Of a DNA stretch of 64,000 bases, positions 15,719-23,412 are shown one piece after another. The stretch covers positions 682,001 to 746,000 of the forward strand of contig NZ_CP064338.1 of the NCBI RefSeq assembly GCF_015476235.1, read 5' to 3'. Source of the stretch: Caldimonas thermodepolymerans. Its GTDB lineage: Bacteria > Pseudomonadota > Gammaproteobacteria > Burkholderiales > Burkholderiaceae_C. The notes under the pieces are model-generated. The model was not told the DNA's origin, did no database searches, and was given only the letters and a program-made list of their open reading frames with translations. The first letter of the stretch is position 1; each line of letters starts with the position of its first letter. Position numbers and translations under genes: made by a program.

Positions 15719-15758
15719 CCCACGCTTCCGGAGGGCACTCACCGCACGGAAGCGTGGG
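15719..15758 (-). promoter_or_regulatory. Perfect inverted repeat between the SAH riboswitch and ahcY
   Basis: A 12-bp perfect stem (CCCACGCTTCCG at 15758-15747 on the minus strand, paired with CGGAAGCGTGGG at 15730-15719) with a 16-nt loop begins right at the 3' edge of the riboswitch. No T-run follows, so it is not a standard intrinsic terminator. It may be the expression platform or an mRNA-stabilising hairpin. Confidence 0.6.
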
Positions 15759-15818
15759 TGAGCGTCGTTGCTTGATGCCGAGCCTGGCGTCCGTGGCGGA
15801 CGCTGCAACGCTCCTCGG
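15754..15818 (-). promoter_or_regulatory. SAH riboswitch in the ahcY leader
   Basis: Read on the minus strand, the leader contains the hallmark blocks CCGAGGAGCG, CCAGGCTCGG and GACGCTCACCC in the right order. CCGAG pairs with CTCGG (P1), and GAGCGT pairs with ACGCTC to close the pseudoknot. This matches the SAH riboswitch known upstream of ahcY in beta- and gammaproteobacteria, which turns expression on when SAH accumulates. Confidence 0.92.
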
Positions 15819-15828
15819 TTGGGGGCGG

Positions 15829-21167: not shown

Positions 21168-22346
21168 TTACAGCCCGGCCGCTGCGCGCAGTGCAGCGGC
21201 CTTGTCGGTGCGCTCCCACGAGAATTCGGGTTCCTCGCGGCCGAAGTGGCCGTAGGCGGCGGTCTTGGAGTAGATCGGGCGCAGCAGGTCCAGCATCTGG
21301 ATGATGCCCTTCGGGCGCAGGTCGAAGTGCTCCTGCACCAGCGCGGCGATCTGCTCGTCGGGGATCACGCCCGTGCCTTCGGTGTAGACCGTGATGTTGA
21401 TCGGGCGCGCCACGCCGATCGCGTAGCTGACCTGGATCTGGCACTGGCGCGCCAGGCCTGCGGCGACGATGTTCTTCGCGACGTAGCGCGCGGCGTAGGC
21501 GGCCGAGCGGTCGACCTTGGTCGGGTCCTTGCCCGAGAAGGCGCCGCCGCCGTGCGGGCAGGCACCGCCATAGGTGTCGACGATGATCTTGCGCCCGGTC
21601 AGGCCGCAGTCGCCCTGCGGGCCGCCGATCACGAAGCGGCCGGTCGGGTTGATCAGGTACTTGGTGTCCTTCAGCCACTCCTTGGGCAGCACCGGCTTGA
21701 TGATCTCCTCGATGCAGGCCTCGATGAACTCGGGCTTCATCTTGGAGCCGTCGCTCATCTCGGGGCTGTGCTGGCTGGACAGCACCACGGTGTCGATGCT
21801 GTGCGGGCGGCCGTCCACGTAGCGCATCGTGATCTGGCTCTTGGCGTCCGGGCGCAGGAAGGGCAGGCGCCCGTCCTTGCGCAGCTGGGCCTGGCGCTCG
21901 ACGATGCGGTGCGCGTAGTAGATCGGCGCGGGCATCAGCTCGGGCGTCTCGTCGCAGGCGTAGCCGAACATCAGGCCCTGGTCGCCGGCGCCGGTGTTCA
22001 GGTAGTCGTCGCTGGCGTGGTCCACGCCCTGCGCGATGTCGTTGCTCTGCTTGTCGTAGGCCACGAGCACCGCGCAGCCCTTGTAGTCGATGCCGTACTC
22101 GGTGTTGTCGTAGCCGATGCGCTTGATCGTGTCGCGCGCGACCTGGATGTAGTCGACATGCGCGTTGGTGGTGATTTCACCGGCCAGCACCACGAGACCC
22201 GTGTTGCACAGCGTCTCGGCGGCCACGCGCGACCGGGGGTCCTGCTCGAAGATGGCATCCAGGATCGCGTCGGAGATCTGGTCGGCCACCTTGTCCGGGT
22301 GGCCTTCGGAGACGGACTCGGATGTGAAGAGGAATTCGTTCGCCAC
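21168..22346 (-). CDS. metK: S-adenosylmethionine synthetase
   Basis: Makes SAM from methionine and ATP. The 392-residue protein has the GHPDK motif near the N-terminus, [12 protein letters not shown], and the phosphate-binding [19 protein letters not shown]. The start is a GTG at 22344-22346, giving [18 protein letters not shown], with GGAG 8 nt upstream; a longer reading frame would run back into the leader terminator. A 5' leader of about 160 nt contains a SAM-II-like fold and an intrinsic terminator that ends exactly at the ribosome binding site, so transcription attenuation by SAM is the likely control. Confidence 0.97.
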
Positions 22347-22357
22347 TTCGTTGACTC

Positions 22358-22398
22358 CAAACAAAAAGACCCTGGCCTGCGTTGCCGGCCCGGGTCTT
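22358..22398 (-). terminator. Intrinsic terminator in the metK leader
   Basis: On the minus strand AAGACCC (22398-22392) pairs with GGGTCTT (22372-22366); a GGCC/GGCC inner stem extends the hairpin after one mismatch. It is followed by TTT-G-TTT. The metK Shine-Dalgarno GGAG begins right at its end, so this terminator must be regulated for metK to be expressed. Confidence 0.85.
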
Positions 22399-22510
22399 GA
22401 GGAGGTGCGGCGAACGCTTTAGCGGCATTTGTCGGACCCGGTGGTCCAGCAGGAGCTCGCTATGCTTCGCTCCTGCGTCGCCCCGCAAGTTGTTCCTTAA
22501 ACCGGCGACC
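22399..22510 (-). promoter_or_regulatory. SAM-II-like riboswitch candidate in the metK leader
   Basis: Read on the minus strand, a P1 stem GTCGCC/GGCGAC (22509-22504 with 22482-22477) encloses a loop beginning GGTTTAA and ending TTGCGG. After two inserted hairpins (22449-22476 and 22434-22447) comes GACAAATGCCGCTAAAG (22433-22417). From memory, SAM-II has GATTTAA...TTGC in its loop and GATAAATG-NN-GCTAAA in its 3' strand, so order and sequence agree. GCGG (22486-22483) and CCGC (22425-22422) can form the pseudoknot. CCGGGTC of the second hairpin can instead pair with GACCCGG of the terminator 5' arm, an antiterminator. Confidence 0.65.
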
Positions 22511-22515
22511 GCGCG

Positions 22516-22521
22516 ATTATA
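22516..22521 (-). promoter_or_regulatory. metK promoter -10 element
   Basis: A perfect TATAAT on the minus strand puts the transcription start near 22509-22510, which is the first base pair of the leader's P1 stem. The -35 at 17-bp spacing, CGGAAC, is weak. The divergent acyltransferase ATG at 22528 is only 7 bp away. Confidence 0.7.
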
Positions 22522-22527
22522 GAAAAG

Positions 22528-23412
22528 ATGCTCACGCTGTTCCGTCTGCTGTCACGTTGGCCCTTGGGGCTATTGCACGTCCTTGGTGCAGGACTGGGCT
22601 GGCTGACCTGGCTGCTGTCGCCCACCTACCGCCGACGGCTGCACCGCAACGCGGCGCAGGCGGGCGTGGCGCCGGCGCAGGCGCGCGCGGCGGTGGCCGA
22701 GGCCGGACGCATGGTGATGGAACTGCCCTGGCTGTGGATGCGCCCGGCGGACCGGCCGCTGGGGGACAAGCTGCGCTGGCAGGGCGAGGCCTGCATCGAG
22801 GAAGCCCATCGGCGCGGCAAGGGCATCGTGTTCCTGACCCCGCACCTGGGCTGCTTCGAGGTGACCGCGCAGGGCTATGCCGAGCGCTACGGCGCGACGC
22901 ACGGTCCGATCACGGTGCTGTACCGGCCGCCACGCAAGGCCGCGATCCGGCCGCTGGTGGAGGCGGCGCGGCGCCGCCCGGGGCTCGCGACCGCGCCGGC
23001 CACGCTGGCCGGGGTGCGGCAGATGATCCGCGCGCTGCGCCAGGGGCAGGCGGTCGGCCTGCTGCCCGACCAGGTGCCGCCCGAGGGCATGGGCGTGTGG
23101 GCGCCGTTCTTCGGCCGGCCGGCCTACACCATGACGCTCGCCGCGCGGCTGGCGCAGCAGACCGGCGCGAGCATCGTGCTGGCCTGGGGCGAGCGGCTGC
23201 GCCGCGGCGCGGGCTACGTGATCCACCTGGAGCCATTTGACGAACCCTTGCCGGACCTGGCCGCCGATCAAGGACAATCGGCCGCCACCGCCATCAACCG
23301 CGCCATGGAACGATTGATCCTGCGATGCCCCGGGCAGTACCTGTGGGGCTATCACCGCTACAAGCAACCGCGTCGCGAGGCTGCGCCCGCCGGCGCGGCG
23401 GAGTCGTCCTGA
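22528..23412 (+). CDS. LpxL/HtrB-type lipid A acyltransferase, first of two
   Basis: A 294-residue inner-membrane-anchored enzyme with a hydrophobic N-terminus (about 10-30) followed by the LPLAT fold. The catalytic HxxxxE motif is HLGCFE (H106, E111), and it also has [17 protein letters not shown], a FFGRPAYT segment and the terminal [10 protein letters not shown]. It should add a secondary fatty acyl chain to lipid A precursors at the cytoplasmic face. It is divergent from metK, and its upstream DNA is the metK leader. Its stop overlaps the next start (TGATG), so the two acyltransferases are coupled. Confidence 0.9.

Follow-up and report, generated by a model that had tools for sequence, protein, structure and literature searches.

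How is metK, the gene of the S-adenosylmethionine (SAM) synthetase, controlled in beta-proteobacteria? According to a 2014 comparative study (PMC4239095), beta-proteobacterial metK has no known methionine regulator, and a search for one failed. We address this question with the metK leader of Caldimonas thermodepolymerans, which lies in a 64,000-nucleotide (nt) stretch of contig NZ_CP064338.1 (positions 682,001 to 746,000; hereafter the window, in whose coordinates all positions are given). A first-pass annotation, made from the letters alone, had read this leader as a SAM-II-class riboswitch with inserted hairpins and a terminator switch. The motif is confirmed to be real, and we consider the leader a likely OFF switch that senses SAM through a divergent pseudoknot aptamer of the SAM-II/SAM-V type.

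Results

Anatomy of the metK leader

Read on the minus strand from 22521 to 22340, the leader holds, in order, TATAAT, GTCGCC, L1 (GGTTTAAGGAACAAC), TTGCGG, GGCGAC, two hairpins, GACAAATGCCGCTAAAG, GCGTTCGCC, CCTCCTC, a G+C-rich hairpin, TTTTTGTTT, GGAG, and GTG. The aptamer elements, namely P1, a GGTTTAA third strand, the GCGG/CCGC pseudoknot with its GAAC/GTTC extension, and ACAAAT/GCTAAAG, fall within 22509-22412. The blocks of the first-pass annotation (P1 GTCGCC/GGCGAC, GGTTTAA, TTGCGG, and the 3' strand) are present where it had placed them, as are the two extra hairpins (22476-22449 and 22447-22434) by which it had P1 separated from the 3' strand; the outer GAAC/GTTC helix is an addition to these blocks. 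The whole 154-nt leader is moderately more stable than its shuffles (z = -1.99, with 6 of 200 shuffles as good). Residues are numbered after 2QWY, in a register taken from the 2QWY sequence and the listed base triples. The aptamer and its promoter comprise the following features.

22516-22521, minus strand: -10 hexamer TATAAT (from the sequence)
22504-22509, minus strand: P1 5' strand GTCGCC (alignment, covariation)
22497-22503, minus strand: L1 third strand GGTTTAA, with U10, U11, and U12 (residue roles from PMC3764141 and PMC6061858)
22492-22495, minus strand: GAAC, which pairs with GTTC at 22415-22412 as the 5' half of the outer pseudoknot helix, called P2a in PMC6061858
22483-22488, minus strand: TTGCGG, comprising U20, U21, and pseudoknot strand GCGG (covariation)
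22477-22482, minus strand: P1 3' strand GGCGAC (covariation)
22449-22476, minus strand: inserted hairpin 1 (-16.4 kcal/mol), in the position of SAM-V P3
22434-22447, minus strand: inserted hairpin 2, GGACC-ACCG-GGTCC (-7.0 kcal/mol), whose 3' arm was the antiterminator strand of the first-pass annotation
22417-22433, minus strand: 3' strand block GACAAATGCCGCTAAAG (from the sequence)
22426-22433, minus strand: L3 GACAAATG, an A-rich strand expected to contact P1 (alignment A1)
22417-22425, minus strand: CCGCTAAAG, comprising pseudoknot strand CCGC, U44 (22421), A45-A47, and G48 (alignment, covariation)
22412-22415, minus strand: GTTC, 3' strand of the helix formed with GAAC (97.6% paired) and also part of the platform stem

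All 13 pocket residues of SAM-II (U10, U11, U12, U20, U21, G22, C23, G42, C43, U44, A45, A46, and A47) are kept in the window; these are the residues listed as completely conserved in SAM-II (PMC3764141). Transcription is expected to start about at P1, and hexamers resembling TATAAT stand directly upstream of P1 in many of the listed leaders, as judged by eye.

Conservation and covariation at metK

We assembled the metK loci of 80 named records and of the 30 best matches among 150 genomes of the window's family, a sample chosen as close relatives by MetK; the MetK start could be located in 109 of these 110 loci, giving 109 leaders. P1, an L1, TTGC or TTGT, and [G/A]CTAAAG occur in this order in 108 of them, the sole leader without the motif (L084) being cut off by a contig end. 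Merging of identical leaders left 104, among which L1 begins with GAGTTA in 100, with GGGTTA in 3, and with GGTTTA in the window only. The aligned leaders retain U11, U21 (sulfonium), and U44 (adenine).

In an alignment of 84 leaders (A1), the 14 proposed pairs of P1 and the pseudoknot are formed in 98.7% of the cells, against 93.2% after shuffling, with 81 double-change cells (25.4 in shuffles), seven pairs changed on both sides, and a covariation score of 0.254 (0.150 shuffled). On four of the five measures no shuffle out of 500 reached the observed value; on the fifth, six did. Relatedness among the leaders inflates this test; a control that retains relatedness, in which the partners were slid by 1 to 3 columns, lowered pairing to 26-49%. 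P1 is paired in 98.8% of cells, with both-side changes in three of its six pairs, and the inner pseudoknot helix in 99.7%, with such changes in three of four; in one leader (L143), TTGTGG faces CCAC, a double change that turns C23-G42 into U-A. In the outer helix, AGAC co-occurs with CGTCG or CGTCA in 8/8 leaders, and the other 96 of the 104 have CGTTC. P1 and the GCGG/CCGC pseudoknot, for which the first-pass annotation had proposed a covariation check, thus covary strongly, and the pair-preserving and concerted changes argue for both pairings as RNA structure.

From P1 to the 3' strand block, the spacing is 2-5 nt in 62 of the 108 leaders, as in compact SAM-II, and 10-115 nt in the other 46. 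Folded alone, these 46 inserts have a mean z of -1.95 and form two or more hairpins in 26 cases; for the window's insert, both hairpins taken together, z = -4.84. Within one group of inserts the second hairpin is consistently GGGC(N)-4 nt-(N)GCTC, its closing pair being A-T or T-A (by eye). The inserted hairpins are probably a peripheral addition at the position of SAM-V P3.

Model searches and distribution

A cmscan of the 64-kb window against 4227 Rfam families reported, at gathering scores, only a riboswitch for S-adenosylhomocysteine (SAH) at 15753-15822; the weak matches in scans of the window and of two short stretches were limited to CRISPR-DR28, asX2, and SNORD15, all below cut-off. 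A covariance model built from 64 metK leaders of named records (R2) gave a single match in the window, at 22509-22409 on the minus strand (64.3 bits, E = 8.9e-15); its training set leaves out the window and the same-genus genome G325 and may include named records of the window's genus. The metK-derived model also finds all 14 of the RF00521 (SAM_alpha) loci given to it (E 3.1e-7 to 0.014), which were drawn from 35 and of which four (L031 and L033-L035) are themselves below the Rfam cut-off. In the 150 family genomes, by eye, none of the 40 RF00521 matches over the cut-off coincides with the genome's best metK-model match, and among the RF00521 matches there, the best score at a metK-type locus is 26.8 bits, the cut-off being 36.

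In the window's order, 36 of 200 genomes carry an RF00521 match above the cut-off. For the window's own genome the listed match, the canonical SAM-II L031 (G000:C1:111997-112071, minus strand), reaches 34.3 bits, just short of the cut-off, and a second, weaker match is counted; L031 precedes metX, and by eye a terminator-like hairpin with a T-run lies downstream of it. The window's genome has at least two SAM-II-type leaders. In L001-L035, RF00521 matches with terminator-like hairpins lie before metX-like and metZ/metY-like genes and one metK (L009), again by eye. A model of metK leaders whose training includes the window and some family loci (R1) matches 145 of the 150 family genomes and, at E 0.01, 144 of the 200 order genomes, a count that takes in cross-matches to canonical SAM-II; at E 1e-6 the counts are 29 of 274 genomes for the class and 19 of 249 for the phylum. 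Of the 150 metK genes listed in the order sample, at least 56 are preceded within 400 nt by a listed R1 match. The metK subtype is near-universal in the family and not in the order. Transfer from alpha-proteobacteria was considered and dropped, SAM-II being found in many genomes of the order.

Pairs of listed aptamer matches, 20-144 nt apart on the same strand, occur in 20 or more of the 200 genomes of the order, and two further tandem genomes, G157 and G046, were recognized by sequence (L159, L175). By eye, a canonical-looking SAM-II with a terminator-like hairpin stands upstream of a metK-type aptamer in L151, L159, L165, L166, L170, L171, and L175 within the order, and in L176, L177, L179, and L182 in other orders of the class. 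This arrangement is known in kind, since 44 cases of tandem SAM-II have been described, some with a terminator first and an RBS (ribosome binding site) second (PMC9481103). Four tandem leaders (L151, L165, L170, and L175) precede proteins of 95-167 amino acids without an NCBIfam or Pfam match, and the MYDC... proteins of L165 and L170 look alike by eye. Other metK-type leaders (L157, L178, L179, and, alike, L158), tandem in L179, precede what look by eye like genes of MoxR-type AAA ATPases. L183, from an A+T-rich genome outside the order and within the class, has metK with a SAM-II-like leader, GAATTTA...CTTGC...GCTAAAG.

Expression platform

Between the aptamer and metK, the following features were located.

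22409-22417, minus strand: platform stem 5' arm GCGTTCGCC, which overlaps the pseudoknot's GTTC (complementary arms, regular expression)
22399-22405, minus strand: CCTCCTC, resembling an anti-Shine-Dalgarno (anti-SD) sequence (anti-SD:SD score)
22368-22396, minus strand: terminator hairpin GACCCGGGCC...GGCCAGGGTC, arms 22396-22387 and 22377-22368 (-16.8 kcal/mol)
22379-22386, minus strand: platform stem 3' arm GGCAACGC, inside the terminator loop (sequence, folds)
22359-22367, minus strand: terminator T-run TTTTTGTTT (from the sequence)
22355-22358, minus strand: metK RBS GGAG (from the sequence)
21168-22346, minus strand: metK, methionine adenosyltransferase (SAM synthetase; TIGR01034)

The arm GCGTTCGCC adjoins the 3' end of the aptamer, and a regular expression finds the complementary arm GG[C/T][A/G]A[C/G]GC in 76 of the 104 leaders. 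Because the platform stem uses the pseudoknot's GTTC, aptamer and platform stem are mutually exclusive. In folds of the window's nascent RNA, with energies that omit pseudoknots and ligand, the platform stem is present as long as the terminator is unfinished and gives way to it once it is complete. Just 1 of 1000 dinucleotide shuffles of 22347-22416 has, next to a T-run, a hairpin at least as stable as the -16.8 kcal/mol of the window; the window's T-run is interrupted. Terminators were sought in the 108 leaders in two ways. A strict search, blind to a gap before the T-run such as that of L168, flagged 5; with a gap of up to 3 nt allowed, 10 were flagged. In five of these the hairpin is closed by the RBS itself, L056 and L069 have long weak hairpins running into the RBS, and L037 (-6.8) and L057 (-9.7) are weak candidates. 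No T-run at all precedes metK in 90 leaders, including that of the same-genus genome G325 (L134). L168, from another family, has a hairpin similar to the window's (-20.2 kcal/mol) with GGCAACGCC in its loop, then CTTTTT.

Over 104 leaders, and with relatedness uncontrolled, anti-SD and SD complement each other better when they come from the same leader (score 14.84) than when leaders are swapped (13.74, sd 0.22; the best of 60 swaps reached 14.08). CTCC-type bases close a hairpin on the RBS in L093, L096, L099, L109, and L111; the window's own match is CTCC/GGAG only. In Undibacterium and a relative (L039, L044, L046, L050, and L057), CGCAGG soon after GCTAAAG can pair, by eye, with a CCTGCG that sits between the metK RBS and the start codon, a different and direct translational platform.

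The neighbourhood

The metK frame starts with GTG at 22346 (minus strand), and its product matches TIGR01034 (585 bits, E 5.7e-176), with Tepidimonas, Roseateles, and other Burkholderiales as the closest named MetK relatives. The divergent neighbour, 22528-23412, matches a lysophospholipid acyltransferase family. The SAH riboswitch (RF01057, 61.4 bits; minus strand) lies upstream of ahcY, followed by a TlyA-type rRNA methyltransferase gene and metF, a locus that much resembles the SAH regulon of Comamonadaceae in PMC4239095.

Discussion

On sequence grounds, we assign the metK leader to the SAM-II/SAM-V superfamily as a divergent metK subtype outside the Rfam threshold. The class proposed by the first-pass annotation is borne out by the 13 pocket residues, the covariation of P1 and the pseudoknot, and the detection of RF00521 loci by the metK model. 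With SAM-II, which was defined in PMC1273637, the leader shares an H-type pseudoknot, P1, the pocket residues, a promoter close to P1, a downstream terminator in some cases, and an association with methionine/SAM genes. It differs in falling below Rfam detection, in the hairpins inserted between P1 and L3, in the metK target, in the GCGTTCGCC/GGCAACGC platform, and in the GAGTTA start of L1 (G10) of most relatives. SAM-II has no helix between P1 and L3, P3 being absent (PMC6061858), whereas the window has two hairpins there. SAM-V (RF01826), compared here by its description, has the same core and carries its P3 stem-loop right after P1 (PMC6061858), that is, at the site of the insert; unlike in SAM-V, in which the Shine-Dalgarno sequence lies at the pseudoknot helix, the window's RBS at 22358 is about 55 nt beyond the pseudoknot end at 22412. 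The SAM-II long loops family (RF01726) is listed as an expansion of SAM-II (PMC2864571), but for Bacteroidetes and marine sequences, and has no match in the leader. The metXZ element of beta-proteobacteria (PMC4239095) resembles the leader in placing a pseudoknot and a terminator before metX or metZ; the available part of that study reports no such element at metK. By its description and the RF00521 matches before metX-like genes, that element may be ordinary SAM-II. The tandem SAM-II and SAM-II/SAM-V leaders of PMC9481103, in which a terminator-type SAM-II is followed by an RBS-type aptamer, have counterparts in other genomes of the order, whereas the window has a single aptamer.

We infer SAM as the ligand, the direction of control, the GTTC exchange, and the termination step as follows. 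With SAM bound, L1 would lie in the groove of the pseudoknot, GCGG would pair with CCGC, and GAAC with GTTC. GTTC being held in the pseudoknot, the GCGTTCGCC/GGCAACGC stem would be prevented, the window's terminator hairpin, with GGCAACGC in its loop, would be freed, and transcription would end short of the metK RBS. In the absence of SAM, the platform stem would form first during transcription and block the terminator, so that metK would be made. In most of the relatives, which lack a terminator, the same exchange would release the anti-SD sequence to cover the RBS. Several results weigh against this model. Rfam SAM_alpha (RF00521), SAM_V (RF01826), and SAM-II long loops (RF01726) do not match the window's metK leader even at E 10; the SAM-II and SAM-V searches had been suggested by the first-pass annotation, and the form is not caught by Rfam. 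Position 10, called an invariant U in SAM-II, is G in 103 of the 104 distinct leaders, that is, in all except the window's. A generic scan of the leader for promoters and terminators, whose rules require a -35 match and a short terminator loop of 3-8 bases, found no good -35 and reported neither promoter nor terminator. Downstream pairing of the platform 5' arm averages 0.636 in 104 leaders against 0.614 in mononucleotide shuffles, exceeds 0.5 in 70 of them (the mean of ten shuffles does so for 96), and in the window reaches 0.62 against 0.69 for shuffles; the stem also covaries little. The case for the platform stem is one of conserved complementary arms and not of folding energy. Finally, the window's terminator (-18.4 in the gap-tolerant search) is the only strong one excluding the RBS among the 108 leaders.

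These results bear on how a SAM aptamer would be read out. The first-pass annotation had the terminator and an antiterminator exclude each other: the terminator is present, it ends at the metK RBS, and the alternative downstream structures are mutually exclusive, but the terminator is not a conserved mechanism, and transcriptional read-out seems to be a local variant of a switch that is mostly read out as translation. Purely translational control, with a terminator-like hairpin that is incidental or weak, would suit the many leaders without a T-run, the five RBS-closing hairpins, the excess of anti-SD complementarity over swapped controls, and the interruption of the window's T-run. The rarity among shuffles of a hairpin as stable as the window's beside a T-run, the similar hairpin and T-run of L168 in another family, and the modest CTCC/GGAG match of the window speak for termination there, and we regard translational control alone as unlikely. 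The antiterminator of the first-pass annotation was a long-range pairing in which, without SAM, CCGGGTC of hairpin 2 (22441-22435) pairs with GACCCGG (22396-22390). These seven Watson-Crick pairs exist in the window and are worth -11.55 kcal/mol taken alone, and by eye the same-genus leader L134 has an insert GGGTG complementary to a downstream CACCC. Yet hairpin 2 (-7.0) must be opened, the script's best insert-to-platform match in L134 is a different pair, and across the 42 leaders with inserts of at least 30 nt such complementarity is barely above controls (15.64 against 14.87 for swapped leaders, sd 0.38, with 8 of 200 swaps as good); the 62 leaders with 2-5 nt inserts cannot use this pairing at all. 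We therefore think it improbable that the switch works in this way, although a second antiterminating contact may come from hairpin 2. The GCGTTCGCC/GGCAACGC stem, itself without folding or covariation support, is the better antiterminator candidate.

Whether the aptamer senses SAM or another ligand, such as SAH, is a question posed by the altered L1 (G10 in the relatives, G9 in the window). In SAM-V, U8, the counterpart of U10, touches the uridine that pairs with the adenine of SAM (PMC6061858), and the loss of an invariant residue in the relatives fits a changed specificity. U11, U21, and U44 are nevertheless kept, the window itself has U10, the gene encodes SAM synthetase, and an SAH riboswitch already stands before ahcY in the same window; another ligand appears very improbable to us. 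That the leader is no metabolite switch but a conserved DNA site or a protein-binding leader is hardly credible, given the pair-preserving changes in P1 and the pseudoknot, the concerted AGAC/CGTC change, and the SAM-II-like pocket residues. A SAM-sensing OFF switch is the reading that we retain.

The first-pass annotation had held that SAM-II is known mainly from alphaproteobacteria and that a form with inserted hairpins controlling metK by transcription in a betaproteobacterium would be notable unless already catalogued. The mere occurrence of SAM-II in beta-proteobacteria is not notable. Terminators with SAM-II in alpha- and beta-proteobacteria (PMC2258182) and SAM-II in alpha-, beta-, and gamma-proteobacteria (PMC2704228) are in print, in addition to the RF00521 matches in the order, while PMC4239095, in its available part, gives SAM_alpha only for Rhizobiales and Rhodobacterales and describes the metXZ element in beta-proteobacteria. 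In open-licence literature we found no description of SAM-II before metK in Burkholderiales, and the main text of PMC8632094 mentions neither metK nor "Burkholderi-". A widely used RNA library misses a branch of a known riboswitch class. The leaders link SAM-II and SAM-V through an intermediate with an optional P3, and those with G10 are natural pocket variants that bear on SAM recognition.

Together, our results favor, with somewhat more confidence than doubt, the view that Burkholderiales have, in their metK leaders, a distinct subtype intermediate between SAM-II and SAM-V and unseen by Rfam, with a G10 pocket, an optional P3/P4 insert, and a conserved GTTC exchange (pseudoknot or GCGTTCGCC/GGCAACGC stem) read as translation in most of the leaders and as termination in the window's genome, and that this subtype is the missing metK regulator in this part of the beta-proteobacteria. 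Its function is very probably to shut down SAM production when SAM is sufficient. Present before metK in 108 of 109 leaders, it offers a concrete and testable candidate regulator for beta-proteobacterial metK.
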